Below, piece after piece: positions 3,219-52,100 of a DNA stretch of 64,000 nt. Source of the DNA: Amphibalanus amphitrite (lineage: Eukaryota; Arthropoda; Thecostraca; Balanomorpha; Balanidae); assembly GCF_019059575.1 (NCBI RefSeq), contig NW_024882326.1, positions 1-64,000 on the forward strand. The letters run 5' to 3'. Within the stretch, counting starts at the first letter, position 1; each line of letters begins with the position of its first letter. A program made the position numbers and the translations under genes. Under the pieces are notes generated by a model, which saw only the letters and a list, made by a program, of their open reading frames with translations, had not been told where the DNA came from and did no database searches.

Positions 3219-3501
3219 GCACCTCCACGCCGCCGCCTCCCCCTCCGCCGGCGCCCGGCTCACCACCTCCACCGCCACCTCCGCCGCCATCCTCTGGCTC
3301 GGGCCGCTCGCCGACGCCGCCTGGCGGCCACCAGGGGGCGGGCCGGCACCGGGGTCCGGCCAGCCCGCCGCCCTCCGACACGGTGCAGGCGGCCATCCAG
3401 GACATCCGACAGGCTATCCGGCGGACCCGCACCCTGCCGCAGCGCAGCTCGCCGCCCGAGGAGGACGGCGGCCGGCCGGCGCGGCCCGTCTGGGTTCCCA
3501 G
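3219..3501 (+). CDS. X11L: Mint exon: proline-rich region and pre-PTB helix
   Basis: The acceptor is CTCCGGCAG ending at 3218 and the donor is CCCAG|GTACGG. Entry phase is 1 and exit phase is 2. It encodes two runs of prolines, a Gly/Ser/Pro stretch, then [20 protein letters not shown] and finally PVWVP, matching the order of the segment just upstream of the PTB in Mint proteins. An open frame continues upstream to 3092, but that part is low-complexity hydrophobic sequence and looks intronic. The last 30 or so bases and the donor are repeated downstream as a minisatellite. Confidence 0.85.
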
Positions 3502-6500
3502 GTACGGCAGAGGGACAGGGGCAGCGCGGGGTGTGTGAGAAGGACAGGGGGTCAGCGGCCGGCCGGCCCGGCCCATGTGGGTCCCCAGGTACGGAGAGGG
3601 GTGTCAGGGAGGGACGGGGACAGCGCAGGGTGTGTGGGAGAGACAGTGGACGGCGGCCGGCTGGCGCGGCCCGTCTGGGTTCCCAGGTACGGAGAGAGAC
3701 AGGGGGACAGCGCAGGGTGTGTGGGAGGACAGGGGACGGTGGCCGGCCGGTGCGGCCCGTCTGGGTACCCAGGTAAGGAGAGGGGTGTGTGGGAGGGACA
3801 GGGGGTCAGCGCGGGGTGTGTGGAAGAGACAGTGGACGGCGGCCGGCCGGCTAGTGCGTCCCTTCTGGGTCCCCAGGTGCTGGAGAGGGACATGGGGACA
3901 GCGGCTGGCCAAGGAAAGGGACAGGGGGCCCCTCTGGGTCCCCAGGGACGGCGGGGTCCGGCGGCTCCAGAACAGACACAGCGTGGGGTTTGTGTGTGGG
4001 GTGGACGGGAGTGGAGGTGACAGGAATGGCAGGGCGGCGGTCTGGGAGGAATGGGGGAATATGTAGGTGGCGCGGGCATCGCCACGTGTGGCGGAAAGTG
4101 GTGTCTGAGGTGTCTGGCCAGAAGTTAGCGGCTGCTGATCAATGATTGATGTTTGGTAAGTGTGTTGGCGGTGGCTAATTTGTGCCTGATCGTGACACCG
4201 AATAGGAAACACGGCTTGCTGGTGCCCAATATTGAAGGTGATTTGAATTGACGCACTATGTACTTATTTGAAGGGATGTAATGTACTTGCTGGACCATCG
4301 AACCCGATAAAACACGAGCAAACATAATAATGAAAGAACTGACTATTGGTCCTGCGACTTTTCCAAGCGATCTTGCATAATATTCTATGAACATGTGGCT
4401 CCTCAGTCTTCATGGTGGGGATTTGTGATCAGTTGCTCACCTTCTATTGAATTGGGACATTTATGAGGACGAATTGTTGCTGGGAATATTACTAGTTCTT
4501 GTTGGTGCCTTGCGTCATGTATAACATTCGGTTTCAGGCGAATTTTGCGGGAGGGCAGAATACATCAAGACGTGCTCTTAGCTGCTTATTGCCATGAACA
4601 AGATGTATTACTTATTTCCAAACATTTCTATATCGCTGTCGGACAAAATGCTAGTAGAGCCCAGGCTGATATATAGCTCCGTTACACTGTCCAACCTCCC
4701 TCCTCCCTAGACGTTCCTGCTGTGAACCGGCTGCCTCAAATACCCGCCGACCATGATCAATGGGCGCCAGTTGCCGGCTCCCGGCGGCGGCAGCCGGATG
4801 TGTGTGACGGCTGCTGACGGCCGGAGCCCGGCCCGAGCCGGCCGCTTTTATTGACGCGCGCCGCCGGCGGGCATCGATTGGCTTTTGCTCACTAAATGAT
4901 GGCCGTCTTAGCGCACTAACGATAGTGTCAGGCGGCGGTATTGGATGTATTATGTGACATGTATCGGAAGCCTGAGAGACGGCCGCGGCCAAATGGTCTC
5001 GCGACACGAAATGGAGATGGCAGCTACGGCCATTGGTCTTCGAGGCGGTGACAGTGAAACGCAGATGGCAGGGCCGTAGTCTGCTAGTGCGTCATTCGAC
5101 CTTCGGCGGTCTGCTCATTGCTCAATGCTCATGCACTTCGGTAGCTCAGCACACGTGCCCGAAGTCGAACATATCACGTCATTTGTAAATTGAATCTTTT
5201 TTTTTGTGAAATTAGAGTTTTAGCGTCACATTTCTATTCAAACCATTTGATTCCGCTCAGTATGCCGCTCAATGCCACGCTGTCTCTTTTCTACCCGATT
5301 TCTGTGTTTGCTGTGTTTTGCACTCCGTCCTTATTGCATCTCACCGTTTCCACTCTGGAGTCTCCAGGTTCCCTGCCATGCCGTCTCCCTCCACCCGTCT
5401 GACGCGACTCTCCCTCTCTCTTCAGACGGACGTCCGGCTACCAGAAGGTGTCGACAGATTGCGACGACCCGGCGGCCGGCACCCGACACGACATCGGTGA
5501 GTGGCGGCTCGGTCACTGACCGTGTTCACTCAGTCCGGGTCAAGCAGTCCAGTCAGTCTCACTCAGTCCGGTCAGTCCGGGACTAGTCAGGTCACCCCCA
5601 CAGCTTGGTACGAGCAGTTCGGTCCAGTCTGACCCGTCTGTAATCAGTCTGGTCAATCCTGCGGTCCGGAAACACTGGGGTCAGCTCTGGAGTCTTGGGA
5701 CAGCCTGGTCAGTCGTGAGGCCGAGTACAGTCCGGCTGCACTGGTAAACAGCCCGACTGCTTTCTGAGGACAGTCACGTAGGGTAATCCGCACTCGATGA
5801 AACGGAGGAAGAGCTGCGGAGGTTGCCCGCCTCGTGAGCAACAACAGCCCTCTGTCTATAATTTGATACAGTCTGGCTTCTTTGTAGTTCCACCTTTGCA
5901 AGGTCACCAGCGCTCAGTATTTTAAGTGATAGATGTCCTTCTGATCTCTGGTTTAGTCGCCGCGCTGACTATCATGAGCCCCGGAAGCCTCATAACCTCA
6001 GTCATCTTCATCATCATTTGATTCATCCGCCTTGGCTTAAAGATTAATCCGATGGCTTTTAACCTCGTCTTTTGCGATGGCGGCTCAGTATAAATTCATG
6101 TCACTCGGTCGCAGCTGGGTTACAAGTCCTTGATCAACCTTGCTGTCAGGTCCTGGGTACCCTCCTGCTGCCATCTGAAAGAGTCAGTGTTCACTCCTTC
6201 CCAGTGTCGGGCAGTGATACGTCACATGACATCGAGGCATCGAGTAAAAATGAGGGTTTCATCCATTATTGCCTATTTAGTTTCCCTGTTCAGTTCTTTA
6301 AAGTGCATGGATAAATTGTTTTATTGCTCTTAGCTTAAAACAAAGGAGCTTTTGATAACATTGCTAAGCGACCGGCTTCAATTATCATTTTTTTTATATT
6401 AGGCCCTTCTCTTAGCTAGGAGGCCTGGTCGACATTCAATTTCTGTCGTGTCAGTGCATTTATTGCACTGGCATGCATAATTTGCATATCTTATGTATAG

Positions 6501-9500
6501 CGTCTTCTTGTGATCTAATCAACGCGCCAATACACTTTATGCAATGTCCCCAACTCTCACCAGGTGCTCTGGGACAAGACGGTTCTGTTCCGATTCCAAG
6601 GCGTCCCAGTAAGTAGCGTTCACTAATTGCCGCTCACCCGCCGCTCATTAACTATCGCCCAGTCGTCAGGGACCGACTGTCCTGCCGGGGTGCTGTGAAG
6701 CTCCGGGTACTAACACGGCGTGGGGGGGGGGGGGGGGCGCTGGCCGCCGGCTGCCGGGTCTGGGGCGAGCGTCGGGTGTGTGATAGATGGAATATTAAAC
6801 AGCCGGGAGCTCAGCTGGGTGTCGGTAACTAGAACCGCTAATAAAACCACTAAATCAATCGCCGATGACCATGCGCCTGTCTTGGGTGTGAAATATTGGC
6901 ATGAGGGATGGCTTCGGTGGGGAGGTAATCCATGTGCTTGCAGATAAGGGACACGGCTAAAAACTGACCGTCCTAGGGTGAGGCGCTGTCATCACAAGAT
7001 ACCGTGTTTTCCTGCCATATACGCTACGATTCCGTTCCTTCTTCTTCTTCCTTGCCAGCTTAGGCCGGGTCCCGTGGGGCCCGGCCCGTCTCCACCAGGA
7101 AGTCTACGATGAGGTCAGCTTCGGTGGAGAATATCTCCCCCAGCGTCGGCAGGGGGCCCCACCGGCGGGTCCGAGCCCCTGGTGTGCGGGGCAGTCCATC
7201 AGCAGGTGCGGGACCGAGTCCGGCTCGCCGCAGTCGACGCACGCGTCGGACTCAGCCAGCCCGAGTCGGTGCCGGGTGTCTCCTGTCAGGGGCGAACATC
7301 CCACCCGGAGCTGCGCCACGGTTACCGACGCTCGGCGGTCCAGTCCGTCGTGCCCGGGCGTCGGGTCGGGGTGCGGGTGGCTGCGTCTGGCGCGCGCATC
7401 ACACATCGCCCGCGCCCGGCGGGCCACCGCGGCTCTCGCCGACCACAGGTCCACGGGGATCTGGTCCTGTCTGCGCGAGCTCCCGATCGCTGCCAGACGG
7501 TCCGCCTCCTCGTTCTCCGGCAGGCCCGCGTGGCCGGGCACCCACTGCAAGTGGAGTCTGTGGCCTGAACAAGTGATGGTGTCTAGCAGGTCCCTGATCT
7601 CCGCTACCAGAGCCGACTGGGAGTCCGCCGTGTCTTGTAGCGACTGGATGGCTGCACGCGAGTCGCAGCAGAGGAGGAGCAGCATGCTCGGCCGGTCAGG
7701 CAGATCGCCCGCGGCCTCGGCCAGCGCCTCGCGGATGGCCACGAGTTCGGCCCGGGTGCTGCTGCATACCTTCCCGGCCGCTACCGTTAGCTGAACGGTG
7801 CGGGACTCCTGGTGGAAGATCAGCAGGGCTCCCCTCCGCCATCGTGCGTGCCGGCCCCAGCCGAACCGTCGGTCCAGATGGACACGTCGGGCTGCGGGAG
7901 AGACGCCAGCGTCGTCTCCGCTGCAGCTCTTCTCGCTTCCGGTGGGTTTGTGCGCGAGGTGGGCACCGTCAGAGAGGTCGATGTAGTCAGACTTGTGGAG
8001 TCCGGTAGAAGGACAGGCGGTGTCAGGGCCAGCGGCTCCGCTGGGAGCTCCGCTAGGCCCGCCTCGCTCGCCATCCAGGCAGCGACTCGCCGCACGCAGG
8101 GTTTTGCATCCAGCACGACGTCCTCATCGCACGGCAGGGGAGGGCCGGAGTTTGTGCCGGCTTGCTGAACCTCTCGAATCCAGGCTTCATGGGATCCGTT
8201 CCTCAGGCTCCTCCTGATGTGCACATAAATGTGGCCAATGAAAATACAGGTTGGTTTTGATTTGGTGCTTGCTCTGTGCTGCTATTGTAAATTGCTTATT
8301 GTGCAGACCGGACATGTCATTCGCATTGGTATGCACCGGTTCAAAATAGAAGACTACGCACACGGTAACTTCTGGTTGGTTAGATACCATGAAGTCTTAC
8401 GATTTCCTGACTTGTATGGTCTTTTTTAGGCCTTCATTGGTGTGTCAACCATGCCAATATTCGGTTTACTCATGGTTCTCTTCGGCTCTATCGTCTTCGG
8501 TTCAAGTTCGGCGTTCGTCCTCCTGGTTTCTTGCAATTTGTCTACCTTGCCCGTTCGGCCGGTTCCTCCCTTCACGTCCCGTCCCGTCTCACCCGCCCCG
8601 TCCATCTGCCCCGTCCCACCCCGTCCGCCCCTTCTCTCCCCATCGCAGCCCGTCCCATCCCGCCCTCTCTGCCGCCCGGGCGTCGCTGATTGGTGTCGGC
8701 TCCCCGAGGTATCCCCATCGGCCGGCCTATATTGGCTGCGGCCGGCCGGGCCTGATTTAATTTGTCATGCGTCTCTCGGAACACCGGTCCGGCCACCGCT
8801 CCGGGCCCGCCGAGGTGCCAGGACGACGGAAAATCCGGCCCAGGTTCCGCCTCAACAGGCTCGGCTGACTAGGCCGCGGCTAGTTTGGGGCTGTTTGTTG
8901 TTTTGATATAATTATTCGAAGGTTTATTCTGGTGGTTCGCTGCCACGTGACTTTTCCAGTGTCCGGGTCCTGGTCCGGCCTGGCTGCACTGTTGGCCTGT
9001 GGTCTGCTGCAGACAGTAGACCCCGCCCGTGGTCCCCCTGGCCGCCCCGTGCCGTCCGCGACCCTGGCCCGTCTCTGACCCCGTCCCGCGGGACCTCCGA
9101 GACTCAGAGGTCCCAGGGTTATCAGCCGGCGATAGGCCGGGATAAGATGTTTGTACACCGTGCTGCTCCGGGGCCAGGGGTGAGCACAGCGGAATCTCTG
9201 GCGTAGTTTCATTGTTTATTGCTTGGTTTGTTTGCAACATTGGATTGTAGTTAAATTTACTAAATATGTTTTAAATGTTTCTGAAATAACTGCTTCCTAC
9301 TTAGGTATGTGTCAAATGATTTGCAGACCATTCATCGATAGCGTTTTTAAAGTTAAGATTTTTAAATCATTACGGCTCTATAAATGCGTTTTATTGATTA
9401 CATACACAGCCGATGCTCTGATTTTGCTGTTTAATCATGTGAGGTGATTGGGTTTAATGATTACCATACTTAATGTGATAGTTGTTTTATCCATACATTA

Positions 9501-12500: not shown

Positions 12501-15500
12501 GCCTTCGTGGTCACGTCGAGCCATAGCTCAGCGCAGTTCTTGAAACATAGCTTTCGATCTCAGCCCTCATCTAAGTTGCGCCTTTATTCTGGCCAAACTC
12601 TAAAAGAACCGGACGCGTTTCTTGTTTGCCGCGGCGTCGTGACTCGTGACCCGTCAGGCGAATTGCGGGCCAGTCGTCGTACCGTGATGACCTGAAACTT
12701 AGCAACGGACGCGGCCGACGGAATTCATGGGACATTTGATGACGGATTATAGTTTCGAGTGAAATATGTCGACTGGATCGATATCCTTGATACGAAGTTG
12801 CGGGTTATCCAGCTGTATGTTGGGTGCCGTCCTGTATTGAAGTTCGACGCATGGGTTGCGGTCATCTTAGATCGATCTCTACCTTTCATAGAGCGCCCGG
12901 TGTCCACATACGCCATGGTAATATATACAATATTGCCGGAACGGGTTGTGCGGCAGTGGAGCCCATGAGCTGGCGCTGATTCTACGGATTTTCCCAACAT
13001 TTGAGGTACATGATTCTCGGATGTCTTTAACCAGCTTTCTTCGTGTGGCTGTATATTATTAAAGCGATGGTTTTGTCCGCGGCGTTACATCGTGCCGTAG
13101 ACGTTGCTAGAGGTCATTAAGTCGCGCTCCGAAAGTCCGATCTACAATAAAGGCAATGCGCACTTGGAGCTCACCATTCATTGTAAGTAATTATGCCTTT
13201 ACTCTAATAACGGTGTCATTCAGTTGAAAGTGCGGTAAATTTGGGCGGAGTTTTGCCTGAAGTCGCCGGTCATTCAGCGTCCTATCCCATTTCTGTTTGT
13301 TAACATTATTAAACTCTGGGGCTGTAGCGCTGACTCTTAAAACCCGGGCGAGGGTCTGCGGGGCCGTTTGCCCCCCCCTTCCCGCAGTCTGGACGGCGGG
13401 GGGGGTGGGGGTCTGGCTCCCCGGGCGGCGTCGCCACCGTCGCCGGCCGGGGCCGCCGCCGCCGTCGGCGCCGTCGCCGATCGACGGTCGGTCCGAACGG
13501 TTGTGTTGGGTTCCAGCGGTGGGGTCCGCCGCCCCTGGCAGTCATGATCTTCGGCCTCTATATCCGCTACGAGTCCTCGGACGGTAAGGGGACTCGGACA
13601 CTGCCTGCTAAAGGGTATCTGCTAACCTCTTGGCACCTCGCTGATGTCGCCTCTTCTGGCGACTGCGTGGTTCAGTGTGTGTGTGTGTGTGTGTGTTTTT
13701 TTTTTAATTAACGAAATGTTGCAATTTCATTTTCTTGTATTACCGGCTTTATAGTGTATGTAGAGGAATTTGACATTGCTTTCTAGCAAAGGACTTACTA
13801 GCTTTAACTTTGAGCAAGTTGACGTTTTATATACGTTTCTTATTCCGGCAGTGATCGTCTTGTTTGCTTCTAAGTCTTCTATTTGTCGAGACCTGTAAAT
13901 AAAATAATTTTGAACGATTTTTCTTAGATATGCATGAGTTTACAAATGAGCTCATGGTTTACGTATGACGTTTGAGCTTTTTTTAGAAATCTAGTCACTG
14001 TTTCTTTTTCTGCCCTGGTATTTTTCCTTCTCGTACATTTCCAGCTGGTGGAATGGAGCAGCAAAGTTGTGTCACACCGGCCTCCAACACGCGGAGCAGC
14101 TGCTCTTATATCGGCGGCCGCAGCCGGCGTGGCCGCCACGCGCTGTTAATTGGGGATGAGCCGCTCGAATTAATGGGCGCCGCCGGTGGCAGCCGGCCGC
14201 CCCGGGGACCGGCCCATAGCGCGCGCTCCATTAGTAGCCCATTGGCTGGCTTATGGTGCGGCTGAGTGGCCGCTCTGCCGATAGGGTAGCCACTGAGCTG
14301 GGGCGTCACCGGCCGCCAGGGGTAGGGTGCTCGGTACCGGTGTGCCACTAATGGGCGCATATGTCACCGGCAGGGGACACGGCTCATCGGACTCTGGATA
14401 GGACTGGACGAATATGTTCACGCTGCCATTAGCATGATGATGTAATTCATACGATGAGGCATATACGGACTTTTAGTTTATTTAACGCAACATGACCTTC
14501 CCTAATAAGCGTTTTAAATACCTTAACTGCAATGGCAGGAATAACTCTGAAACTGGCAATGTTTCGCAGGAACTGATAGTCTTCGACTAATGTGGTCGCT
14601 GAAAATCTGTTGATTTTAAAGGGTTGATTCTTGAGCTAGAAGACATTGCACGGGTCCAATGAAAGGAAATTTCTTTTACGCTTAGTCGTTCTATGTATAG
14701 TTGGTACCTTGCAATGGATGGATATTCAAATACATTTATTAGCCAGTTGACGTTTTGTCTGTCCTTGTGAAAGAGTAAAACTACATTTGAGTAGGTACCT
14801 TGTTTTCATCATACTTTTACTTCTTCCAGTACGTGATTGTTATGCAGCAGCGTTGGTCATATGCGGATGATATGCACAGTTGCGTATATTCTGGCACAAT
14901 TTCGTTGCTTTGCATATCGCGCTGTCGTTGGGGAAAATGACTGACGGATGCACCATGCCTTGATTGATTATGCATATGCCACCAGCGATGGGTGGTAAAA
15001 GCCTCCTGGGTCGTGGCAGGCATTCAGCGACTTTCAGGAACTTCGGCACACAATGCTCTGTGTTTGGAAATTGATGTTCGACATTCATCCACATGCCTCA
15101 TAGTGTCACTCAGTAGCTGAATTTCTGTTTTACTTGCTGATGGCTCGCCGCATTTTGTATTCTAGAGCGGAACTGCACCGTTATTCACATCGATTTCCAT
15201 GGTGGAGCCCGGCGGACACATATCAGTCAGGGATGGCGGCCATTTCGCGCGATTGGTTTCATGGCTCGACTGGGCTCACTGAACGACCGGCAAAGTGTCA
15301 CGCGCTCAGGGCGATAACATTGATGGCGGCAGTGGCCGATTCAACCCATGCATTTCCTTGATCGGAATGCGTGTGAATGAGCACTCACCAATGTCGGGTA
15401 ATGATGGTGGACATTCCGCTGCCAAAATAAATTCAGTGCCATTTACTTTTGATGACCGATCAAAGCGCACAATTAGCTGCCAAAATAAATTAAGATATAT

Positions 15501-18500
15501 GTGCTTTTGATGACGGAGCACATGGGTACTCACTGGGTAGGCTCTCAGTTTCCTCTTTTACGACGTTGTGGCGTCGTCGGTTAAAATGACGAAGAGTACC
15601 GTATAAGAGTATTCCACACTGCGGCTATTTTCGACCTCAGTCAAAGCACTTGTGTCAGCGGCCGCCAGCTGAGATGGATGATAACGCTCGCTGCTTTAGC
15701 GGCAGTGTGAGGCTGAGAGCGCGGCTGGTATAGCTCTCGCCGCGGTCTGCGGGCCGCTCGACAGAGCGCTGGCTCCGCTATCAGACGATTTTATCGCCAC
15801 TGCACTGATGCCAAAGTGCGGCGATGTGTCAGCCACCCGCGATTGGTTAGCGAAGTGGAGGAGTTAATGAGCTCGGTCAGTATAGCCAATGCGTGTCGAC
15901 GGTAACGGCGACGGGCTTTCAGCAGTCTTGAGGTTGAAAGAGAGGGGGCGGGGTTTAGTCTGGAGTCACACCAGGGCCGCTCTGAATGACACAGCCATTG
16001 GCCGCTGCACAAAGCGCCGGTCGCAGGACTGATACGGACAGGTCACGATATCAGTTTGGTGCCCAGCGCCGTGTCATGAATGGCTGGCTGGTGACGCGAG
16101 TGGCACTGACGCCCAATACTGCCTGGGCCTTTACAGGCACCTCTATAGCGCAGCTGATTGGTATGGTATGGACAAGTGGTAGAGGGTCTAGCTCATAATG
16201 GATGGGAGCTCTGAAGTACATTTTTGCACTTGTTACTTATATGACGCTTCTTTCATCACCACACCAAATTGGAAAATAAATGAATAAACTGCCCATACCT
16301 ACATAGCGGCCATGTTCCTCGACAATAGTGTGTGTCCTTCTACACTCCTGTGTGTGCTTCCCACGTCCCCGTGGCTCGCTGAGGACATTCTCTGTATCAG
16401 CGCGCCGCGCCTGTGGCATGCGTGACGCGTCTGCGGCCCGCGCGGCGCCCATGAAGAGCGCCGTTTCTCGGCAGGCGACGACGGCCTGTCGACGGCTGTG
16501 CTTGGTATGCATTGGCGGCGGCCGGCCATGTCCATTGGCCGTGATTAGGAGCCGGCCGTAATTCGGCGGCCGGTCGCCGCGCGGCGCTCCCCGGGCGCGG
16601 CCGCAGACTGCAGAGCTGGTCACCGCCCGGGCGGCGAGCCGAGCAGAATCTCTTCCGGGACGGGACACTAGGCATAGAGATTGGTGCTCAAATATGTGTC
16701 TGGCTACCTGGAATCGCCAGCTGAAGTGAAACCTAATACAGCTTGGAGCAAGAGAACAGCTCCTAGATGAACCTACGAGAGAAAGACACTCGTAGATATA
16801 TAGGATTGTATGCTAGTGATGGACAGTCTTTGCTCTAGCCGTCATTTGTTTTTCAATGAAGTCCAACCAAATCCATAGCCCTGACCGCGCTTCTGCCTAA
16901 TCAAGCGTGGCGTGCTTTTGCAAAACATAATGGTCTGACGCCTGTGATAAGTGTGTACCCATCAACCCCGATTTGTGTGTGTATTCTAGACTGGACCGGT
17001 CCAGAAGCTGTGTGCTAAAATCCTAACATTTCACAAAAGGAATGGTGATGTAAAATGCAAAGTTCTCTTTGTCTGTCAAAGCGATCAATGTCAGCTAAAA
17101 GTTCGGACTGAATGCGAATGACAGCTGTTATAATGACATGAAATGTTCACAGAAATAACCCACACTAAACTCTTTTTCGGGAAATTGATAACTACAAGCA
17201 AAATCAAGGAAGTGCTATCATGGGGAGCGCCCCAGCGCCCGCGCCGCATCCCACGCCGTTCTGATCGCGTTGTTTTCTGTTCGCCAGATGAGGCGGACAC
17301 GGATCAGGAGACGGACCGTCTGCTGGGTCAGCAGCGCACCGTCACCGGCGACAGCGCCGACCTGGACAAGGTGAGTAGCCTCTACCCGGGTCAGCAGCGC
17401 ACCGTCACCGGCGACAGCGCCGACCTAGACAAGGTGAGTAGCCTCTACCCGGTCCACAGGGTCAGCAGCGCACCGTCACCGGCGACAGCGCCGACCTAGA
17501 CAAGGTGAGTAGCCTCTACCCGGTCCACAGGGTCAGCAGCGCACCGTCACCGGCGACAGCGCCGACCTGGACCAAGGTGAGTAGCTTCTACCAGGGTTCA
17601 GTCACCGGCGACAGCGCCGACCTAGACAGGGTGAGTAGCCTCTGCGCGGGCCAGCAGCGCACCGTCACCGGCGACAGCGCCGACCTGGACAAGGTGAGTA
17701 GTCTCTCCCAAGGCCAGGGCCAGCAGAATATCGTCAGCGCGGAAGTGGACAAGGTGAATAGCCTCTACCTGGGCCGTGATAAACGGCGGCGGACGTTTAC
17801 CGCTCACCGAACTGATGTGGCAGCAGGCTCACCTCGTATGTGCCTGTACCGGCGGGCTCATTCTTCATTCGTGTGCTGTTCCCGTGCTGTTGTTTAAAGT
17901 CAGACGTCCAGTACCCGATGTTTGGGTCTGTCTCCACAGTAATGTGTCCACTGCCCATGGCCATGATGGTGCCTGATTTCGCTTCCCTGAATCGATTTCG
18001 GTCATGTCGCTTCCACGAAACGTACTGACAGTCGAACTATTGATAAATCAACAGGTTCACTTGATTGTGTTTAGGCTCCTGTTTCATCAGTGATCAGTAA
18101 TGTGATTCCGATTCCAGTGAAAATGGAACCCGTTTCCGAATTAATCAAATCCTTTGGCGTTGGTTTCAAGTCAGTCGGTGTCTGTATTGTGTTGTGCGTT
18201 GTCCATGTGCCTTGTGCAGGTCGCTGGCAGGGTTTGTAGTCCTGGCTGTAGCGTGATATCATTCAGTATCATGTCCATCGACAACAACTGGACGGTTCGA
18301 GTTTCGACACACCCCTCTCGGTCGTTGTTTGGCTTTGCTGGTGTCTGGACAGCCTTTTGCCAGACGCCGACTTCTGTGCCTCGGTGGGGCTGTTGCCGCT
18401 GAAAAATGCCCCTGGAAATAATAACATTCCTCAACTGACGGCCGAGCAAATTCGGACCGTAGTCGTATGTCCTTTATACGACATTCGCCGCTGGTCCGTG

Positions 18501-21500
18501 ACAAGTTAGGGCCGTCATCCAGGCTGCACGGGGGTCATTTCTGGGCGGAATCGTAATGTTTCCAGCGAAAACATGCCACTTCAACCAACTATTGGTGATA
18601 TGGAGACAAACCGCAGGACTGAACACAAGCCTCATACAGTGACGGGCTCATTTCCGATCTCAAATAGGGTGTTATGTTCGTTTTTGTTATACGCAAAAAT
18701 CACGTAAAAATGACCCGTTATAGATCAATATATCATTGCTTTCGATCGACTGCAATATTGTCCCTTATCTTCATTTTTATGCATTTTTTATGTTCTTACC
18801 GACTGTTGCACGTAGATTATTTACTTTGACAATATTTGATCTCAGTCTGTTTTCGTCTTCGGTATTGTCCTCAGTCCGCTTTGTCCCGCGCTTTCCATTT
18901 CGGCCTCCAAATACACATGCGGCTCTCTTCATCTCCAGTTCTTTTCAAGTTTGGTAATTTGGCTGTTTTGGAGGAGCGTTCGGCACGCATCCGTCGTCGC
19001 TGTGGCCGCCTCATTTGTCGGCGGGGAGGCGCGGCCGAGAGGCTGCACACTCGGACGGCAGACAAATGTGCGATAAAGCTGACGGACGGCCGCGGATCGG
19101 TGGTGCAGAAATGTCAGCCGGCCGGCGGGCGATCTCCCCGGCCCGGAGAGGCGTATGGATCACCTGAGCCCGCGGCCTAGCGGCGAGAGGACGGCTATTC
19201 GCGCGGCTCACACACGGCTGACGCAAATCGGAAACGGATTTTTCGGTCAAATTGGCTGCGTTTTTCTTGCGGACGTATAATATCAGAAGGAGCTATATCG
19301 TGAATGATTTTATGATAACACGGCTTATTTTTACATTGGTTTCTATAGTACTTACCACTTTCCTGGAATAGAAGCTGTCACTCTTTGGTTATTTTATTTT
19401 TCGTTCAGCGAAAACATCCTGTAGCTGTCGTACCTTATTACCCATGAGCAAGCATGTCTGCCTTGTCAGCGCCGATGCATTTGGTCTGTCCTATTTTTTC
19501 ACTTTGATTTTTTTTTCTAGTTTTTTTTTTCAAACTATATTATATTTTGTTTGTTATGAATCAGGTGCGAACAATTTTTTCATTCTATATTGCTTTGTTT
19601 CTTTTTATGTAACTTAACTAAACAATGCTGAAAATATTCTCTCTTAACCAATGCATTTCGGTATACCCGGTGGCCTTTATTTTCACCCCGGCACAGCTGA
19701 AGTCCCTGCCGTCTCCAGACGGAGCACGTCCAAAGCCGGGGCTCCGGTCGGGGTTAGCCGACGATCCCTGCCAGCTCGGCGGCCGACCTCCCGCGCCGTG
19801 GCCGACTGTTTTGCCGCCGGCGTAACGACCTGTAGCGCGGCGATTGGCCGTTCCCCTGAGACCGGCGCTGGCGCGTCGTCCCCAGGGCGCAGAGACGCGC
19901 CCCTTGACCCGCTCGCCAGCGGGAAAAGCGCGGAATAGGGCATCGCAGCCGCCTGATTGCGAGCTGTTGACCGCGTAGCCTGATGTGATTGGGATCGTCA
20001 GTGGCGTGCTGCATTGATGCACTTCGTTTTTTTTTTAAGCGGATTGTGATATGCACCCGAAAAAGGTAACTGTAAGTGATCGGTTGATGCATGTCGCTCT
20101 CCAATCGACGCTTATCTGTAAATGATATCGGACAATGGAAATCCACTTTTTGGAAAGCGTGGGTCACACACTACACACTAGACAGACTCAGGGGCTTAGT
20201 GCCTCGGACTCGGAGTGTAATCTCGGACTCGGAGTGTAATCGCCACGCCGATTGTGGATTGCTCTTGATCGTCAATACATACATACATGCATACATAGGC
20301 AGCAGCTGATGAGAGTAGGCTGGTCTTTTCTGTAGCGCTGACTGATGGAATCGTCTCCAGTTTTCCTGTCTCCAGTTCCCTCCGACACTCTATGGTCCTC
20401 ATGATCGAGCCTCTGTGTACCGCTCGTTGCAGGCCGGCGGTGGCGGCGGCGGCTGTCGGCCGGACGGTCCTGACAGGTACATCGACCCGCTATGCCGTGT
20501 GTTTGTGTTCGGGCGGGGCCGGTGGCGGTATGGATCGACAACAGGTGGTGGGCTGCGGGCGACGGGCGACGGTCGGTGTCGGGGGTCAGCCCCGGCCGAC
20601 GGGCGCCGACCACCCGCGGGGGTCTGTCCCAGCGCCCGGTCCCGGGCCATGGTCGGAGTCGGGGGCGTACCTCGGCGACGGGCGGTGATGGGGTCAGCCT
20701 CGGCGACGGGCGGTGATGGGGTCAGCCTCGACGACGGGCGGTGATGGGGGCATACCTCGGCGACGGGCGTCTGACGGCGGTGGTCGGTGTCACACGTCTC
20801 CTTGGGCACTGTCTGCTTCTGCGGGGCCTCGGCGCCGGCCGGGGGGCTTTTCACGGGTTTTGGTTTCCTGTTCCTGCCAGCACCGGTATCACCGCTTGTG
20901 TCCATGTCAGGTGATGGAATACTGTTGTCTATATTTCTTTCACTGACTGTGGGGCTAAACTGCTGCACTGTGCTCAACCTTTGTGTTAATTACCTTTTTA
21001 ATTCATCAGCAGAGCATCGTCAAAATCTTTACGAATGCAATGATTAGTATTTTGACGTTATTTTTTATCTGTTTTGTTCGTACTTCTGCCTTATCTTTCT
21101 GTTTTCATTGTCCGTTACAAGCAACCTTTTTTGGCTTGACCTTGTTTCAGTAATCCGCCAATCTCACTAAGTCGGCAGGTAGCAGCATCTATCGACTAGA
21201 AAAAAGCTGTGTCGCTATCTGCCAATTACCAACGGTTACATAAAAACTAGCTGCCTGTTCTTAGTGCCTTGTTATCACAGTTCTGAGCGGACTGCTTAGT
21301 GCTTATCCTGGTATATCACCAGCACTAATTCCTGCTCCAAGTTGTGGGATGTGTCACAAATCGACCATGCACCGTATCTATTTCTTTCCAGCTTTATTAG
21401 CGTTGCTCAATGTTCCGTTTATTTTCAGCTGCTTGACCTCGCGTCATAGCTTTGTCGCCTAGCGTGTATGGGACGGAAGTTCCCGGCTATTATGGCTACC

Positions 21501-36500: not shown

Positions 36501-39500
36501 CCTTCACTTTGCGCTGTTCCGGCTTTGGTGCTTACCGTTAACACGAAATTGAACACTTCTCCAGTGGTCCTGACAACTCTTTCGGTCTCATGAATCTGTC
36601 AATAGACTCGATACATACAGTTCGACCGGTTGGCCGTAGAGTCTGATGAAAGAGTAAATCTCGATTGAAGGCGGAGCTTGGAGCGAACTTCCGCCGAAAT
36701 TTAATCGCCGTCGTCGGAATGAGCCGAGAACCCTGAGACCTCATGACTTCATGGAAAGCCTTGTGTACGAGGGCGCGAATGAGTCTCGGCGGGTAATTTG
36801 TTCCGCAGCTGTCAGAGCCGGCCCCCGCCCTGTACCCGGTCAGGTATTGGCGCGGCCGGTCGCAGTCCCTGCTCATTTCCAGCCGGGCCGGGCTGCGGAG
36901 GCGTGATGAGCTCCCGGCGGGGGCGCGATGGCGACCTCCATGTCCGCCCGAGGCGCCGCCATGCTGCCGACCGGACATTGGCGCTGATTTACAGAGACAA
37001 TGCCGCTAAATCACGGCGCGGCGCGGCCGCTGTCTGCGGCTCTGTCTCCGGCCCGGTGGGTCTGGAGGAGAGCCGACCCCGCCCGACCGCCGAGACTGTC
37101 CGCCGGCCCTGTTAGGCTGAAAGATGGATGGGGCAATTAGGGCAATAAAAAGTGCCCGAAGGAGGTGTCACTGGATGAAACCGGGATGAACTTCATCAAT
37201 GAAATATATAAACTAGATGCCGGCAGCGCTCGTGCGTTGCCTTGGGCCAGAATTGGAGGAATGGAACTGAGTATGGACCAGTATGGACTGCAAAACCAAC
37301 TGAAACATCCATGAAATGCTTGAAAGCACGTGAGATTCATGTGGAGATCTACCTACAGTAAGATATGAATTAACTGCACGTGCATAGTTCATGTCCTAGG
37401 CACCACAGTGCAGGCATTTCCATAACATCCTGTAGCGTGTGTCTAGTTCTATCAGTGTACCGACTTTTGTGTCGCTAGCTCGACGTTTCCCGGGATCAAA
37501 GGATCCATCGTCAAAACCGTTAACAGCCCCCCGCACGCGCAGCTTGCACCCCTCGGATATTATCTCGCCGGAATGTCATGACTCAATGCATTCTTCTTAT
37601 GACCTGCAAGTTTTGAACCAGTTAGAGCTACCGTTTACCCTGCAGGCGTGGCAACGTACGAAGGGGTGCAATAGGCTTGCACGTGCATAGCTCATGCACC
37701 ACAAAGTTTAGCTCAACCAAATGTGCACTGTTTTGGAGGCCTTGCCTGGGACTACCAATGAACCGATTTTGAGGTTGATAGATCAATATTTCTTTGAGCC
37801 AGAGGACCTCACGTCAAAACGGTTTTCCGCCCCCAGCACGTGCAGCCTGCACCCCTCGCAGACGGTGACCCCCCTGGAAACTGGTTCCAGGTGTTACCGA
37901 TGTGTCCCGCCAGTATGGCTTTGCCCGTGACCTCGGGTTGACCTGTAGCCTTGACAAAAAATTTCGTGTCACCGAAACTTTGAAGCGGAATAGCATGTGC
38001 CACGAAACACCGAGCGAACCGAGGCCAGCACCAAAAGTTTACCTCGCCGGAGACGAATCAAACGGTCCCACTTTCGTCCCGATCGGTCCACCCATTTTGA
38101 CTCCAGGTCCAAAAAAGCTTGGACAAACTCACTCACATACTCACATACTCACTCACTGACAAACAGGTTCAGCCGAACTTTTTTTCAGCGACCCGGTGGG
38201 TCTGGAGGAGAAAATATATAAATTAATTCTTCCCTCGTATCCACAGAATGCAAGTTTTTTCTTCTTCTTCCACTCGCAAGTCGCAGTTATGGCCTAGTGA
38301 AGCTTATTTTTCCACGATAACTGCCGTTCATGCAGTTGGGATTGTTTTGTTTGTTTTGTTAAATGTTATCAGTTTTTTATTGAACGATTATGCTTGCGCC
38401 GTAAGAATTGGATAGTTTCTTCTGCAGTCCATGGGCGGCGGTAGCTGTAACGCCTGATACCTAAGTATACTGCACCGCAAGGCTCGGATAGTTTCTTGCT
38501 TAGTCCATAGATGGCGTTAGTTGTAACGCCTAACGCCTGGCGTGTATGCTGTGCCGCAAGGCGTGAATAGTTTCTACCGCAGCTCATAGATGGCGGTAGT
38601 TGTTACGCCTGACAGGTATGCTGTGCCGCAAGGTTTGGATAGTGTCTATATAACGGTTCATAGATGGCGGTACCTGCAAGGCCTGATATAGGTATATGCT
38701 GCGCCGCAAGGCGTGGATAGTTTCTGTAATGGTCCCGAGACCCGAGTCCATATATGGCGGTAGTTGTAACGCATGGCGTGTATGCTGTGCCGCAAAGGTT
38801 GGGTAATTGCTACCGCTGTTCATAGATGGAGATAGCTGTACAGGGTGTCTCAAAAGTTCGTTCACAGGTACCAGCCATGCTTTTTTGTCAATAATTCTGA
38901 ATCAACAAGAAATTCAACAGTCGAAATTTTGCATGGGCATTGGTGACAACCTTCCTCAAGCAGTCTCATTGTTTTCAAGTGCATTCGACCCTTCATGAGC
39001 TCACAAAAAGGGTTCACCTCTGACCATGGGTCAGGCACGAAAATGTAGGTTGCAAAGTCGGGTATGTTGTGAAACTCTCTGTTTCAGGAGTAATGGGAAT
39101 GGTTAAGTCGGAAATGACACATGGCTAAGTGTCGGCGAGGATGAGTGCAACATGATGATCATCTCATAAAAACGATGGCTAAAATTTTTGAAGGACGAAA
39201 CCATGCGAGACTAACGGCGTTTTGAACGACCCTCGCACGACAGCAGACTCGTGTTCCGGAAAGCAGCTGAAAATGCGGTCATAACTATTGAAAACTGGCA
39301 AGACGGTCACAGACAGAGGTTACCCATTTTCAAAAAGTGCAGGTCATCGTAAAATAAAGACAAATTATAATTTAAAATTGTTTATTATATCTATAACGCT
39401 AATTTTTGGGGACAATAACCCAAAAATCGTCAATGCCAAGGACACCTGACCCTCCAAAAGTGTCAGTTATTGTAAAATTTTATCTAACGAAGTTTCAAGA

Positions 39501-44223: not shown

Positions 44224-44227
44224 TTAA

Positions 44228-45331: not shown

Positions 45332-45359
45332 GGTTAGGTTAGGTTAGGTTAGGTTAGGT
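45332..45359 (+). repeat. Interstitial (TTAGG)n tract
   Basis: GGTTAGGTTAGGTTAGGTTA continues for five full units, the arthropod telomere repeat. A shorter complementary tract, CCTAACCTAACCTGACC, lies at 45629-45645. The two face each other around an AT-rich segment with ATTAGGTTTTGCTA and, reversed, TTAGGTTTTGTTA. Confidence 0.85.
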
Positions 45360-45889
45360 AATGACAGGTCAGATAAGATTAGGTTTTGCTATCCCTGCTT
45401 GACTTTTTTAAGGAGTAACATCATATGAAAATTTTTCTAAGTTTAATTATGGTTTGTGGCAAATATGGTGCAGTTTTTATTCAATTGTTAGCCTGGGATG
45501 CAAAAGAGGGATTTCACCCTCACAATAGACTAAATAGAGAAAGCAGGAAAGCCCCTAAAAAAGTAGAGCCCGCTATCATGTGGCATACAGGTGGCCATGA
45601 TTTTGAAACAAACTGCATTGGTAACAAAACCTAACCTAACCTGACCTACTGACCCTTAAGTACCTACTAAGTACTAGTAAAAATGTTGTTCCTGTGATAA
45701 CAGGACACATTTTTCCTGGTGATAACATACTGGTGTGTAAAATCAAAAACCATCTGGTAATAAAGCAGCTCAAGTGGCTCACCATTTAGTCACCAATGAA
45801 AATGTTATCTGATCAAATGTTAACTTGCCATGTTCTTTCTTAATGGTATTACTGTTACATTACAGGTGGTACTGTAAAAAGTGCACAAA
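45360..45889. other. NOC2 upstream region
   Basis: It lies between the TTAGG tracts and the NOC2 start codon. A 69-codon open frame at 45425-45634 has no recognised relatives and lies within the inverted-repeat segment. The NOC2 promoter and 5' UTR should be here, but no TATA box is convincing. Confidence 0.35.
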
Positions 45890-46157
45890 ATGAAGGCAAA
45901 GAAGGTAAAATCACAAAATAGCTCAAATGCAAAACAGGGAACAGCTTCAAAGTCCAAGAAGAATGGTGTGAGCTCTGATGATAAGGATGCAGCTTTGGCG
46001 TCTATGTCCATTGACCAGTTCCTGGCATCTGGGTTTGACTCTGATGACGATGGAGATGCTGAATCAGACACACCTATGAATGGTGGGGACCATGAGACAG
46101 AGTCAGCGGAGGAGCCAGACGATTCCAGTGGGGAAGAGGAGGAGGAGTCCAGTGAAG
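45890..46157 (+). CDS. NOC2L: NOC2 coding exon 1
   Basis: The first in-frame ATG is at 45890 (an in-frame GTG at 45881 precedes it). A splice-acceptor-like TTACATTACAG lies just upstream at about 45864, so a 5' UTR intron is likely. It encodes a Lys/Ser-rich start, SIDQFLASGFDSDDD (human NOC2L has a very similar DEFLASGFDS) and an acidic tail, then GAAG|GTAATG. Exit phase is 1. Confidence 0.9.
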
Positions 46158-49100
46158 GTAATGCCATTCAGGATTATATAATACTGAACGAGGCCGGTGT
46201 AAATAAATTTTCAAGACCGAGGTCCTTACTGAATTTTTGAACGAGGCCGAAGGCCGAGTTCAAAAATCAGTAAGGACAGGTCTTGAAAATTTATCACCGG
46301 CCGAGTTTGGTATGTATTTTACTGTATGCCAACGATAAAATAATTGTCTGGACCGAAGCTCTTAGCCGTTTTTTGAACGAGGCCATCCCAAAATGTTGAC
46401 TTGGTAATTCGTTTTTGACCGTGGTCAATTTGCTTTTACTGTATGCCTGGCCTATTCAAATACATTAGCCAGAGAGGTGTGGTAATAACTGGTGTAAGCA
46501 AATTGACCACGGTCAAAAATGCATTACCAGAATGCACTTAAGCCAACATTTTTGGATGGTCTCGTTCCTAAGTCGGCTAAGAGCTTCGGTCCAGAAAATA
46601 AATTTATCGTTGGCATACAGTAAAATACATACCAAACTCGGCCGGTGATAAATTTTCAAGACCTCAGTCCTTACTGATTTTTGAACTCGGCCTTCGGCCT
46701 CGTTCAAAAATCCAGTAAGGACCTCGGTCTTGAAAATTTATTTACACCGGCCTCGTTCAGTATTATATAACACCGCTTACACCAGTTATTACCACACCCC
46801 TCTGGCTAATGTATTTGAATAGGCCAGGTATACAGTAAATCTGTAAACTGTGTAATATTTGTTAGAATGACCTTCAGGGAGGCAGTTATTATTGCTTAAA
46901 AGACATTTGGGCCTAGGAGTGACTTGTGGCAATCATGTCCCATTTTCAGTGACCCCAGACCTCCAGGGGGTGTCAATCAATTGCATTTAGCATGTTCCCA
47001 ACGTAACTGTCAGTTCTGCATGTCCTGTTGAACAATGATTTGCAGGTACTTTTGAAGCATTGTCCCAGCTCGCAACTCAATTCATGTCTTGATATTGCAG
47101 AGGAGGGCAATGAAGAGGACTTTCACAAGTCTCTGGACAAGCTGAAGGACACTGATCCAGAGTTCTACAAGTTCCTCCAGGAAAATGACAAAGATGTGTT
47201 CGAGGGGGAGGAAGAAAAAGAAACTGAACAGCCTGAGCCGGCAGATGAGGTGGGGCCAATTAGTTGAAGGCTTACTTTTATTGTAAGAGAACAAGCATCT
47301 TTACTACTCCAGTTATTCACTTGTATTTTACTATGAGGGAAAGCCAATTTCTCTCAACTCCATCGTGAAACAATGGTTGTTTGGTTGTACAGCCCAACTT
47401 ATTACTAGATGCGATGCCTTGCACACCGAACAGTGTTTTTTCCTCGTTTGTTTCAGGACTCAGCTGAAGACAGTGATGACGAGCCCTCGGATCCGTCTGG
47501 GCTCAGTCTGACTCAGATCAGTCGATGGGAGGCAGCTCTTGCGAGTACACAGTACGTACGTCATAACGAACCTCTCGTCATCTTAGAAAGCTTTTCAATT
47601 GTGGTCCTGTGTTACCAATGCTCAGATGCTGCATGGTGGCATTTTTAAAACTCCAAACTCTATTGTTCTTAATTACGCCCACATGTGCATCAATACGTGA
47701 GCCGAAACTTTTGCTTATTGATTGTTTTGCTGACAAAGTAAAATGTTTGCGTTCGTGTTATAAATCCCCGGCTATTTGTGTCACCGTGCCACCTGTTGTT
47801 CGCGGAGCATCCTCACGCCACCGCTGCCGCCGCCAGGGCCAAGTCGGCTCTGAAGGAGGTCACTGCCGCGTTCCGGTCGGCAGTGCAGCGCGCGACCGGC
47901 GGCGGGGCCGAGGGCGCCTCGACCATCGACGATCCCACAGGTCGGTGCCGACTGAACCGCGGGCTGAATGAAATCCTGGACAGGGGTGTGACCAATATTC
48001 TTGTGTTGCGTTTGACGTGAATGAGATCGGATTGGAAGCTCGGATGTAGTGCCACTGTAGCACGATACAATGCGTCACGGTACCACATATTGAGAAAGCT
48101 TCTTGAAATGTTGACACGTTCTCTCCATTTTTATAGTTCTTGTATAGTTTTTCATTTTGCTTTTTATAGACATCATCGTTTCGACTTATAACGATTGTTT
48201 AAATGGGTCGAGATTCGTTAAGAGGTAAGGCCCACAGCCCTGCGCCTATGACACCGTCTCTGCACGGCCGTGTGTCCCGCAGTGTTCAACAGCCTGGTGC
48301 GTCTGTGTCTGAACGAGGTGCCTCGCGCCGTGGCCTCCATCCTGAAACTGGAGTCGTCGGAGAAGGACCCGTCGCGCTGCAAACGCTGGCCGCAGGTCAA
48401 AGGGCCCGTCAAACGCTTCCTCACGGACGTCATTCAGGTGAGGCGGACTGGGAGAGTTGTCATTGAAGTTAAGTGTGTGGCCTTGCTTCATGAAGCGTCG
48501 CTATAGGTATGACGTTTGAAGATTAGTTCTAGCAGTTTGTGATCTGTAGAGTCACACCGATTCAGCATCACACACCGATGTAATAATGAGTTGCCGGATC
48601 ATCACACACCGATAATCATACCACCACAATGCCAGCGTGGGTAGGGAGAGCGAGTGAACGGTGCAGAACTTACCCCCCTTCTGCCTCCAATTGGCCCGGT
48701 ACGCTGGTTCCCTATTCCCAAAGTACCGCTGTCCCACATTCCGCCGGCAGCTGCTGGCGTCCTCGGGCTCTGCGGCGATGCAGCGCGCGCTGCTGCGCCA
48801 CCTGCTGGCCATGACGCCGTACCTGGCCACCGAGCAGCGACTGTGCTCGCAGCTGGTCAGCCGGCTGGTGGCCCTCTGGTCCGCCGGCGAGGAGGAGGTG
48901 CGCGTGCTGGCCTTCGTCAACCTGTACCGGCTGACCAGGAGGAACCAAGCCGCCCTGCTCGACACAGTACTCATGGTGAGCCGGCCGCCGATCTAACGGC
49001 GGATGGACGCTCAGGCTGGTGACGGGGGAACGGGCGGTGTCCAAGTGAGGAAGCATGTTGTCTGAGAACCGTCTTGCTTTTATGGAGGTTTAGTTCTAAA

Positions 49101-52100
49101 CCAGCGTTTTCCTCGGTCAATGACGGTTCACGCTCACGCCCTCTGTCGCCCGCCCTGTCGTGCCAACAGAAAGCGTACCTGGCGTACGTGAAGAACTGCG
49201 CGTTCACGTCCGCTCAGTCGTGGCCTCACATTCACCTGATGCGCCGGTCGCTGGTGGAGCTCTACAGCATCGACCCGTCTATGAGCTACCAGCGGGCGTT
49301 CCTCTACATCCGGCAGCTGGCCATCCACCTGCGCAACGCCAAACTCGACAAGAAAAAGGTAACCGGAAGCTGCTGGGTAAGGTGGATCAGACGTGGATAG
49401 GTTGGTTACGCGGATGTATCTGCTGTATGTGACGGTGTTTCTGCTGTTTGTAACGAGTGTGTGTATCCGTGTTCAGTTTCAGGTGGTGTACGTTACAACT
49501 AGCGTTTGTCCACTGTCCTCAGCTGTGGGCGGCTGTTTCACCTGTGTATGTCTCTGTCTTACGGTATGTATCTGTGTCTAGTTTCAGGTGGTGTACAAAC
49601 TGGCAGTATGTCCACTGCCTGCTGTGTTACGGTATGTCTCTGTGTATCCAGTTCCATGTGGTGTACAACTGGCAGTATGTTCACTGTCTGCTGTGTGTCA
49701 GTATGTGTCTGTGTATCCAGTTCCAGGTGGTGTACAACTGGCAGTATGTCCACTGCCTGCTCTGTGTCAGTATATCTTTGTGTTACAGTATGTATCTGTG
49801 TATCCAGTTCCAGGTGGTGTACAACTGGCAGTATGTCCACTGCCTGTCTGTGTGTCAGTATGTATCTGTGTATCCAGTTCCAGGTGGTGTACAACTCGCA
49901 GTATGTCCACTGCCTGTCTGTGTGTCAGTATGTGTGTGTCAGTGTGTCTTTGTGTTACGGTATGTCTCTGTGTGTTCAGTTCCAGGTGGTGTACAACTGG
50001 CAGTATGTCCACTGCCTGCTCCTGTGGTCCGCCCTGATCGGAGAGGACCGCAGTGAGGAGCTGCGACTGCTGCTCTACCCACTCACACAGGTCGGTGGCG
50101 CTATCATAACCCGAGGTGATACGATATGCTTTTCGTGTACGGCTGATACATTTTAATGCTCCAATTACGGTGAATTTATCGCATCACATTTAAGCTTATT
50201 TATGCATGCTCCATAATGATAAGTTAAAACATCATTTGTCGCTTGGTTTCTCATGTCTAAGAGTAGGTCGAGTCGAGTTACCTGACTAGGAGAAGTGAGC
50301 CTTATTAAGCAGTTAGCCCCAGCCACGTCCCCCCTCTGACCGGCCTCCGCCGCGTTCGCCTCCCCATCAGATAATGCTGGGCACGGTGAACCTGATCACC
50401 ACGTCTCGCCACTACCCTCTGCGTCTGCACGTGGTGCGCGCGCTGACGCAGCTGTCGGCCGCCACCAACACCTTCATCCCCGTGCTGCCGCTGCTGCTGC
50501 AGGTACGGCGGGAGGACGCAGGGGCACGCCGGCGGGTCAGCGCTGTTGGCCACGTGGGGTGGAGGTGCGGGGATGGGGGTCATTGAACGGGATGTCTGAG
50601 TTGCAGGAACAGACACGAGACAATACAATATTTACAGACGTCCGAAGGAACCTAACTTTATCAGGGAACGAAGCGTTTTTTTAGGGAGATTGACGACTGG
50701 CAATGGTGTTTGATTCCAATAAACGTCTTTTTAATGTTATTCAGTGGAAGGAAACTGATTGCTGACGAAAACTGTCCAATAGATGGTGAGTAATACATAT
50801 GAAAAACGTAGAAGATCATTGACATTACTTGGAAGCTAGACATGGACATGTTTTAGTGAAGTTGCTATCATGTAGTGAAGTTGCTATCATGCCCTCACTT
50901 CCCTCGTTTCCCCCTATAAATTTAAAACGTTGCGCTTTCTCCAGGTCCTCCACCAGACCGACTTCAACAAGCGCAGCTCTCGCGTGTCGATGCGCCCGCT
51001 GGACCTGAGCTGCATGCTGCGCTTCTCGGAGGCCGAGCTGAAGGAGAACGGCTTCCGTGATGGCGTGTTCGACGGCGTGCTCTCGGCTCTGGTCGAGTAC
51101 CTGCACGTGGAGTGCTGCAGCCTGGCCTTCCCCGAGCTGGTGGTGCTCGCCAGGATACAGGTCAGTTCCGGGCCAAACTGGTCCGTCCCGGGCAGCTGAC
51201 GGTCAGATCGAAGTAGAAATTAGTTAGCGTCAAACTGGTCAGTCCTGGGTGCGTGTCACCGACCGTATCTGGTTACAGACTTAACGAGTGTCGGCTTGAT
51301 CATCATCGATGTGTCATCATTGGTGCTGCGCTTCACGGGCCAGCCGTGTCAGTTCCGATACTAACCTGCGTGTCAGTTTAGCACGCAGTTTAGTATCGGA
51401 ATATGGTAGACGTGATTGCCAGGCCAGAAGCCAGAACCATGGACGGTCATCATATGCTGATTGTGGGAAGAAGCTGGTGCCTTTCAAAAACACTTTGCTT
51501 TCGACTGTGCGGTTTGAAGAGATAATTTATCGCGCCGGATGTGGGTTTGAACTAGGTGAGGGCTACCGACTAGGGCTTCGGGTAGATTTTCAAAACGTCC
51601 TCCGGGCCGGATTTGAACCAGCGACCTATGGATGCCTGTGAGTGCTCTACAGTATACCGCTCTACCAACTGAGCTACCAGAGGATATGAGGCCGTTCTGA
51701 CGCGGTATCGTGCGCCGGCGACGGCGGGCCGTGAAGTGCCGGTTACAGAGTGGAACGGTGTAGTGAAAGGGACCACGCCCTGAGCGGGGGCGGGACGACG
51801 AGGGGGTCAGCGCGGCGACACTAGCATTCAGCATCCTCTGGTAGCTCAGTTGGTAGAGCGGTGGACTGTAGCGGAACGTTCAGACATCCATAGGTCGCTG
51901 GTTCAAATCCGGCCCGGAGGACGTTTTGGGGAGCAGCTGCCGGTCAGATCCTGGCTTGATGTAGCTCAGATTACATGTGCGTTAACCTGCGCCCCGCGGG
52001 GGGGGCAGAATCTGCCCCCCCCCCTCCCGTTTTTCGCCAATAACTTCTAAACGCGTTACGCCAGCTACGTCAAACTTTCAGTACCTTATCATACATCAAT

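Follow-up and report, generated by a model that had tools for sequence, protein, structure and literature searches.

Why should tandem repeats in two neighbouring genes straddle the borders between exons and introns? The question is raised by a stretch of 64,000 nucleotides of the barnacle Amphibalanus amphitrite (assembly GCF_019059575.1, contig NW_024882326.1, positions 1 to 64,000; the window in what follows), which a genome search places at C829:1-64000 and which carries two plus-strand genes, Mint/lin-10 and then NOC2. A sequence-only reading of the window had described three arrays, in about 23 introns, whose units straddle splice sites of these two genes and are unrelated to one another, and it had proposed a local duplication process. 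All three arrays lie where that reading had put them, the count of introns and the lack of relationship among the units proved right, and local duplication is still the best reading. We consider it probable that the arrays are minisatellites of the kind known as 'mirages', products of tandem duplication that goes on genome-wide and is tolerated at exon borders since splicing keeps to the exon-proximal site.

The three arrays, called A, B and C (Table 1), stand apart from all else at the 44 modelled splice junctions of the window: their local-copy scores are 122, 136 and 128, and that of the next best junction is 29. In array A the unit joins about 39-43 bp of exon end to about 44-58 bp of intron start (27 in the last copy) and contains CCCAG/GT in each copy, the slash marking the splice junction; the exonic parts of the four non-authentic copies are 83-97% identical to the exon. 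Array B comprises six copies, one of them partial, at 17325-17709, followed by a degenerate stub that runs to 17769; its unit holds 46-47 bp of exon end and about 17-25 bp of intron, with a GTGAGT donor in each. Array C lies at a 3' splice site, and its unit consists of about 29 bp of intron end followed by 39 bp of exon start, the exonic parts being 77-100% identical. The authentic exon itself supplies 39 bases in A, 46 in B and 39 in C. The authentic copy is the exon-proximal one, namely the first in A and B and the last in C, and AGGT occurs at the border, or at most six bases from it, in the units of all three. Another array of the window, t72, was considered as a fourth border array and ruled out by its distance from the nearest junction (Table 1). 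By eye, its 72-bp unit looks related to a 74-bp unit found by Tandem Repeats Finder (TRF) at L016:4151-4400 (ATGCTGTGCCGCAA...CATAGATGGCG); the two may belong to a tandem family that is dispersed, which the border arrays are not.

The position of the authentic borders is supported by protein models. The acceptor of NOC2 exon 8 is placed at 49980 because P0121, P0124 and P0125 read KFQVVYNWQ. In the NOC2 proteins of relatives, P0124 and P0125, which are without repeated units, this sequence appears as KKKFQVVYNWQ and KHKFQVVYNWQ, and P0121 agrees with the NOC2 exons of the window with zero mismatches except at exon joins. Two other models vary at this border: P0123 is modelled without FQ at the start of exon 8 (six bases shorter), and P0122, from which most of exon 5 is missing, has one extra in-frame unit of 23 residues, FHVVYNWQ..., and may come from an allele or from another assembly. 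Exon B ends in DLDK in the named A. amphitrite lin-10 isoforms (DLDK/ERDAV in P0241 and P0243, DLDK/NWRK in P0242). The border of exon A is based on reading phase and on PPVWVPR in one homologue, P0256; the A. amphitrite lin-10 isoforms examined do not contain this exon. For B and C, the protein models use the exon-proximal site, from which P0122 differs.

Splice signals are retained in many copies though not in all: arrays A and B keep donors and array C keeps acceptor motifs, and one copy of an array in ITFG2, described below, has CAA for CAG. In copy order the donor scores of array A are 4.2, 4.2, 4.2, 7.4 and 0.5, so that the best donor is a decoy (7.4 against 4.2 for the authentic site). 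In array B five copies score 8.1, the partial copy 5.8 and the stub 4.9. Since the authentic donors are not favoured by this simple site score, normal splicing cannot be due to a choice made by such a score, but it could be due to a choice of the site that adjoins the exon body. If used, all four decoys of A and five of the six of B (stub included) would lead to a stop, and the first decoy of B would add 63 bases in frame. Array C has six decoy acceptors, and one of the five acceptors examined keeps the frame (+102). In the shorter version of the NOC2 array on contig C1301, two of three decoys are in frame (+69 and +171).

The theme recurs elsewhere in the genome. A sample of 21 arbitrary 10-kb pieces (210 kb), drawn from contigs C1 to C20 regardless of content, contained 24 TRF arrays that passed a filter (unit at least 25, length at least 90, overlapping rows dropped). 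The junction regions of eight arrays were read base by base: four straddle an exon border, one probably does so, and three merely abut an exon. For the other arrays the judgement came only from a list of coding segments, which makes the number of cases a lower bound. Two of the clear cases are in WDR3, the one at a 3' splice site being older and degenerate, and the others are in an ankyrin gene and in ITFG2; the probable case is in RPL9, with plain repetition of the intronic half and only weak repetition of the exonic half. Both types of border are duplicated, the 5' type in A, B, WDR3 and ankyrin, and the 3' type in C, WDR3 and ITFG2. Identification of the genes varies in strength. For the exon at the WDR3 3' splice site array, the Pfam match to the second propeller of WDR3 is a fragment below the cut-off, and the best PDB match is a multi-repeat WD40 protein, with the WDR3 chain 7mq8 in second place. 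A PDB search with the ITFG2 segment gave no match, and Pfam, searched with ten chosen segments, gave no family for three of them, namely that of RPL9 and one each from L006 and L015.

The three arrays that abut exons, two in L006 and one in L013, hold no exon sequence. At L006:6527-6663 a 66-bp repeat fills the pyrimidine-rich stretch up to the acceptor; the exon there has no Pfam match, and a neighbouring exon has weak immunoglobulin matches below curated cut-offs. At L013:787-3066, some 50 copies of a 47-bp unit begin about 30-50 bases into the intron after a p190RhoGAP-like exon. A different arrangement is found in L028 and L029 (contigs C1074 and C725), which are 99.1% alike and carry a large array. 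Most units in the 1 kb inspected read CCCCAG, about 35 bases, then CACAG/GTAACAG, and the array thus looks like many repeats of a tiny exon flanked by its two splice signals.

Copy number differs at three of the four loci at which a second contig resembling an allele was informative. The NOC2 array has seven copies in the window and four in C1301, the span from anchor to anchor being 687 and 441 bases, respectively. The flanks of the two versions are 96.7% and 92.5% identical in a MAFFT alignment, and BLAST gives 98.8% over 1134 bases downstream. The 68-base unit that is joined to exon 8 in C1301 exactly matches a decoy of the window, 49692-49759, and this unit is preceded by the FH unit in both contigs. 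In the simplest reading of these sequences, units would have been lost by exchange inside the identical exonic half, and the border would thereby have gained another intronic half. At the WDR3 5' splice site there are three copies in C17 and one in C162 (an empty site), with 465 of 476 other positions alike. In ITFG2 there are six copies against two, as counted with a 17-base probe at no more than four mismatches.

Arrays A and B also occur in C1301, where they are 99.5% and 99.96% identical to the window; being nearly identical, they belong to the same haplotype and are silent on polymorphism. All three arrays of the window are thus present beyond its own contig, NOC2 with another copy number. 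Positions 12286-20282 and C1301:160001-168000 (L030) are 99.96% identical over 8 kb, yet the two contigs have diverged near NOC2. C829 and C1301 are overlapping contigs, apparently with a haplotype switch, and the assembly (807.5 Mb in 2644 contigs) seems to be unpurged. A genome search with array C returned the array itself, its counterpart in C1301 and 11 weaker rows; two of these rows were inspected, and both are TG-rich. For each of the WDR3 and ITFG2 arrays, matches were confined to two contigs. One spreading repeat is not supported by these searches, which were made with array C and the WDR3 and ITFG2 arrays and not with A or B.

The explanation that we favour can be put as a sequence of steps. 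Tandem duplication of segments of about 20-115 bp is frequent genome-wide, exon borders included; this much is a pattern in the data, and the mechanism is probably slippage or template switching in replication or break repair. Border arrays, we conclude, are common because tandem duplication is common. A copy on the intron side of a border would be nearly harmless, since the spliceosome would keep the site beside the exon body, and the extra exon ends and splice sites would persist in the intron. Duplications within exons would mostly be purged by selection. The arrays would then grow and shrink, as they do between the allele-like contigs, and exchange between identical exonic halves could swap the exon-adjoining unit and leave the protein unchanged. 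Because use of a decoy would in most cases put the reading out of frame or end it at a stop, the correct choice must be enforced, presumably by exon definition and RNA quality control.

Several points weigh against genome-wide duplication with tolerance at borders, and some of them would suit a mutational process aimed at exon borders, with repeats arising preferentially there, for instance where R-loops form or forks stall at GC-rich exon ends, or at AG/GT sequences. Use of the exon-proximal site appears from protein models, one of which, P0122, has the extra in-frame unit. The reading of the second contigs as alleles, as opposed to paralogues, is suggested by their identity and by exactly two strong contigs in each of the genome searches described above. 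The ITFG2 pair is 89-96% alike and its allele status is the least sure, because it is more diverged, and at the WDR3 3' splice site the structure is unchanged between contigs that are 94% alike, with no change in copy number. Counts of arrays lean to an excess at borders that a random process does not need. In the window, three or more of the four arrays with units of at least 60 bp would fall on a junction by random placement with P=0.016 (0.028 within the gene span, 0.003 with stricter overlap, 0.064 with all seven arrays). In the sample, exon segments were taken from a codon-bias score trained on the two genes of the window, where at threshold 15 it finds 17 of 23 exons and yields 43 segments of which 17 are known exons, so that a large share of the segments cannot be exons. 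With the exon threshold at its loosest, 12, 10 of 24 arrays overlap a coding end against 3.5 expected (P=0.0012). The excess shrinks at stricter thresholds, with 6 against 3.1 at 15 (P=0.07), 6 against 2.4 at 20 (P=0.03) and 4 against 2.0 at 25 (P=0.14), and some of the overlaps come from arrays that only abut an exon (two, in L006). At the level of positions there is no excess: 17 of 232 coding ends (7.3%) score at least 45, compared with 7.6% of 1386 random positions and with 36 of 640 flank positions (5.6%, P=0.34), and in the window the figures are 3 of 44 for junctions, 15 of 141 for flank positions and 20 of 356 for positions in introns. A depletion inside exons is only hinted at. For segments scoring at least 25, duplicated interiors number 1 of 52 against 8 of 119 ends; at threshold 15, the lowest, the interiors (4 of 65) are no freer of duplication than the ends and flanks just given. 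Neither an aim nor an enrichment at exon borders, as the sequence-only reading implied, is established: array counts give P from 0.001 to 0.14, depending on the exon threshold, and positions give no support. These data are compatible with a border excess of up to two- or threefold but do not demonstrate one, and we regard a border-aimed process as unlikely.

Selection might instead keep the repeats as functional decoys, for regulation of splicing or for variation in protein length, a reading that we find distinctly improbable. It would be in keeping with the in-frame decoys of B, C and C1301, with the extra unit of P0122, and with the lower divergence of the exonic halves (per compared site, exonic against intronic, 0.169 and 0.201 in A, 0.039 and 0.074 in B, 0.043 and 0.127 in C). 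This gap is small, however, and comes from non-independent pairs of chosen copies, with two elements of B (the partial copy at 17601 and the stub at 17732) and one of C (its oldest copy, at 49449) left out and the exonic value of B inflated by a one-base insertion in one copy; exchange of units with a constrained exon would produce it equally well. Moreover, a change of frame or a stop would follow from the use of most decoys, copy number goes down to zero decoys between the WDR3 contigs, and the B and C protein models from the window's own contig skip the copies. The arrays could also be traces of intron birth, the host introns having arisen by tandem duplication of AGGT-bearing exon segments as in the Rogers model. 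AGGT at or near the border in A, B and C fits such an origin, mirages have been proposed as a route to new introns in amphioxus globins (PMC3087553), and duplication of a border created an intron in potato (PMC4974935). Each unit, however, includes a piece of the intron beside its piece of the exon, which means that an intron already existed when the units arose, and we think intron birth very unlikely here. As for an artefact of assembly, tandem repeats are hard to assemble, and C829 and C1301 are the near-identical overlapping contigs described above; yet the copies differ among themselves, a second contig holds a NOC2 array whose flanks have diverged and whose copies are not the same, and a separate protein record, P0122, carries a unit of array C. 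This possibility is already largely refuted and we give it hardly any credence.

The coordinates of the arrays and of the modelled exons are collected in Table 1. The A. amphitrite lin-10-like isoforms match the window at 90-97%, and the first Mint/lin-10 exons seem to lie outside it. The borders of the Mint exons that encode the PTB and PDZ domains have no arrays, and their local-copy scores are all 26 or less. Within a Mint intron, 7104-7742 (minus strand) encodes an RNase H domain, probably a retroelement remnant, and the 12.6-kb intron of NOC2 contains a DDE_3 transposase-like open frame at 59930-60619 (plus strand). A GC-rich long open frame at 30445-31402 (plus strand), between the PTB exons of Mint, is PTB-like by impression and had no match in Pfam or PDB, so that these searches lend no support to a nested PTB-like gene that may lie at 30.5-31.4 kb. 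A tandem run of GTTAG/TTAGG-like sequence lies at 45308-45385, which we take to resemble the arthropod telomere motif.

Table 1. Arrays and modelled exons in the window, and border arrays in the genome sample (L coordinates)
Feature	Position	Strand	Basis or remark
Array A (Mint exon A 5' splice site, 5 copies)	3463..3903	+	TRF; copy alignment
Array B (Mint exon B 5' splice site)	17325..17769	+	TRF; copies
Array C (NOC2 exon 8 3' splice site, 7 copies)	49449..50018	+	TRF; copies
Array t72 (control)	38532..38722	+	nearest modelled junction 1825 bp off
Array t28 (control)	20670..20769	+	nearest modelled junction 3300 bp off
WDR3 exon 5' splice site array	L018:8776-9011		PDB 7mq8 WDR3, E 1e-19; Pfam Utp12
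WDR3 other exon 3' splice site array	L018:6619-6826		Pfam WD40 above cut-off
Ankyrin exon 5' splice site array	L016:9031-9413		Pfam
ITFG2 exon 3' splice site array	L019:3091-3241	-	weak Pfam match, E 0.003, under curated cut-off
RPL9 exon array (probable case)	L011:4035-4298	-	PDB ribosomal protein L9
Mint/lin-10 exon A (ends ...PVWVPR)	3219..3501	+	open frame, in phase with exons A2, A3 and B; PPVWVPR in homologue P0256
Mint exon A2	5426..5496	+	splice sites and phase
Mint exon A3	6564..6608	+	splice sites and phase
Mint alternative first exon	13544..13583	+	P0241-P0243
Mint exon B (5' splice site duplicated)	17288..17370	+	P0241-P0243, no repeat in proteins
Mint exon C1	24350-24442	+	P0242; borders array-free, local-copy scores 16-19 (C1, C2)
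Mint exon C2	26024-26063	+	P0242; borders array-free, local-copy scores 16-19 (C1, C2)
Mint PTB/PDZ exons	26983-27125, 35851-35937, 40548-40703, 40854-41036, 41305-41778, 42006-42077	+	Pfam PID, PDZ; P0241
NOC2 exons 1-10	45890..51160	+	P0121 exon by exon; splice sites; Pfam Noc2 on exon 8
NOC2 exon 8 (FQVVYNWQYVHCLLLW...; 3' splice site duplicated)	49980..50090	+	P0121, P0124, P0125; PDB 8fkv NOC2 homologue aligned
NOC2 exon 11	start 63796; gene runs past window end	+	

Four clear cases in 210 kb would scale to about 15,000 in the unpurged 807.5-Mb assembly. It is conceivable, and to us almost an even matter, that barnacle genes hold thousands of polymorphic border minisatellites, that their borders turn over within the species by exchange of units, so that the copy serving as the real border differs from allele to allele, and that extra in-frame units and sometimes new introns arise as by-products. 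Arrays of near-identical splice sites that one chromosome copy carries and the other lacks would be natural experiments on how the spliceosome chooses among equal sites, and a second question that they could address is whether tandem duplication of borders feeds the gain of introns. Both could be tested in one individual of an animal that is common and heterozygous and has several such arrays in every few hundred kilobases. There is also a warning for annotation, since gene predictors can draw decoy units into proteins, as P0122 suggests.

Repeats that carry splice sites are known from several systems. Introner elements are dispersed families of such repeats. The barnacle arrays are like them in carrying splice sites and unlike them in distribution: array C and the WDR3 and ITFG2 arrays are each one locus, in two contigs, and show no introner-like dispersal. 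Tandem duplication and RNA decay have been discussed for intron gain in Drosophila, and novel Daphnia introns flanked by short direct repeats are a related observation in arthropods (PMC2809761, which cites the latter). In the potato RdRp gene an intron was gained by tandem duplication of a border, and the Rogers model is cited in that connection (PMC4974935). There, as here, the end of an intron and the start of an exon were duplicated and splice signals were inherited, but the barnacle copies stay inside the old intron.

The closest parallel is in amphioxus (lancelet), where minisatellites at exon-intron borders of several genes have been named 'mirages' (PMC3087553; PMC3902484), so that the premise of the sequence-only reading, that only isolated duplications of splice sites were on record, has to be given up. 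These papers name a handful of genes, to which TnC and PGBD5 were added as cases (PMC3902484), and describe alleles of BflGb6 with six and three copies (PMC3087553). As in amphioxus, the barnacle units are tandem, lie across 5' or 3' borders and include AG/GT-bearing copies, and the six and three copies of BflGb6 have a counterpart in the seven and four of NOC2, if the two NOC2 contigs are alleles. Mirage repeats in amphioxus Adh3 are reportedly subject to somatic length instability; amphioxus mirages reportedly leave regular splicing undisturbed, and RT-PCR has been reported for them. A search of open-licence PubMed Central, covering titles and the beginnings of abstracts of the papers listed, found no report of border-spanning arrays in a barnacle or other arthropod, which is weak evidence. 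The kind of array is thus already known; what is new, within the reach of this search, is the lineage in which it occurs, its density and the pairs of contigs: the host is an arthropod and not a cephalochordate, four clear cases occur in 210 kb besides the three in the window, one pair of contigs shows presence and absence with an empty site, and at one border the adjoining unit itself differs between contigs.

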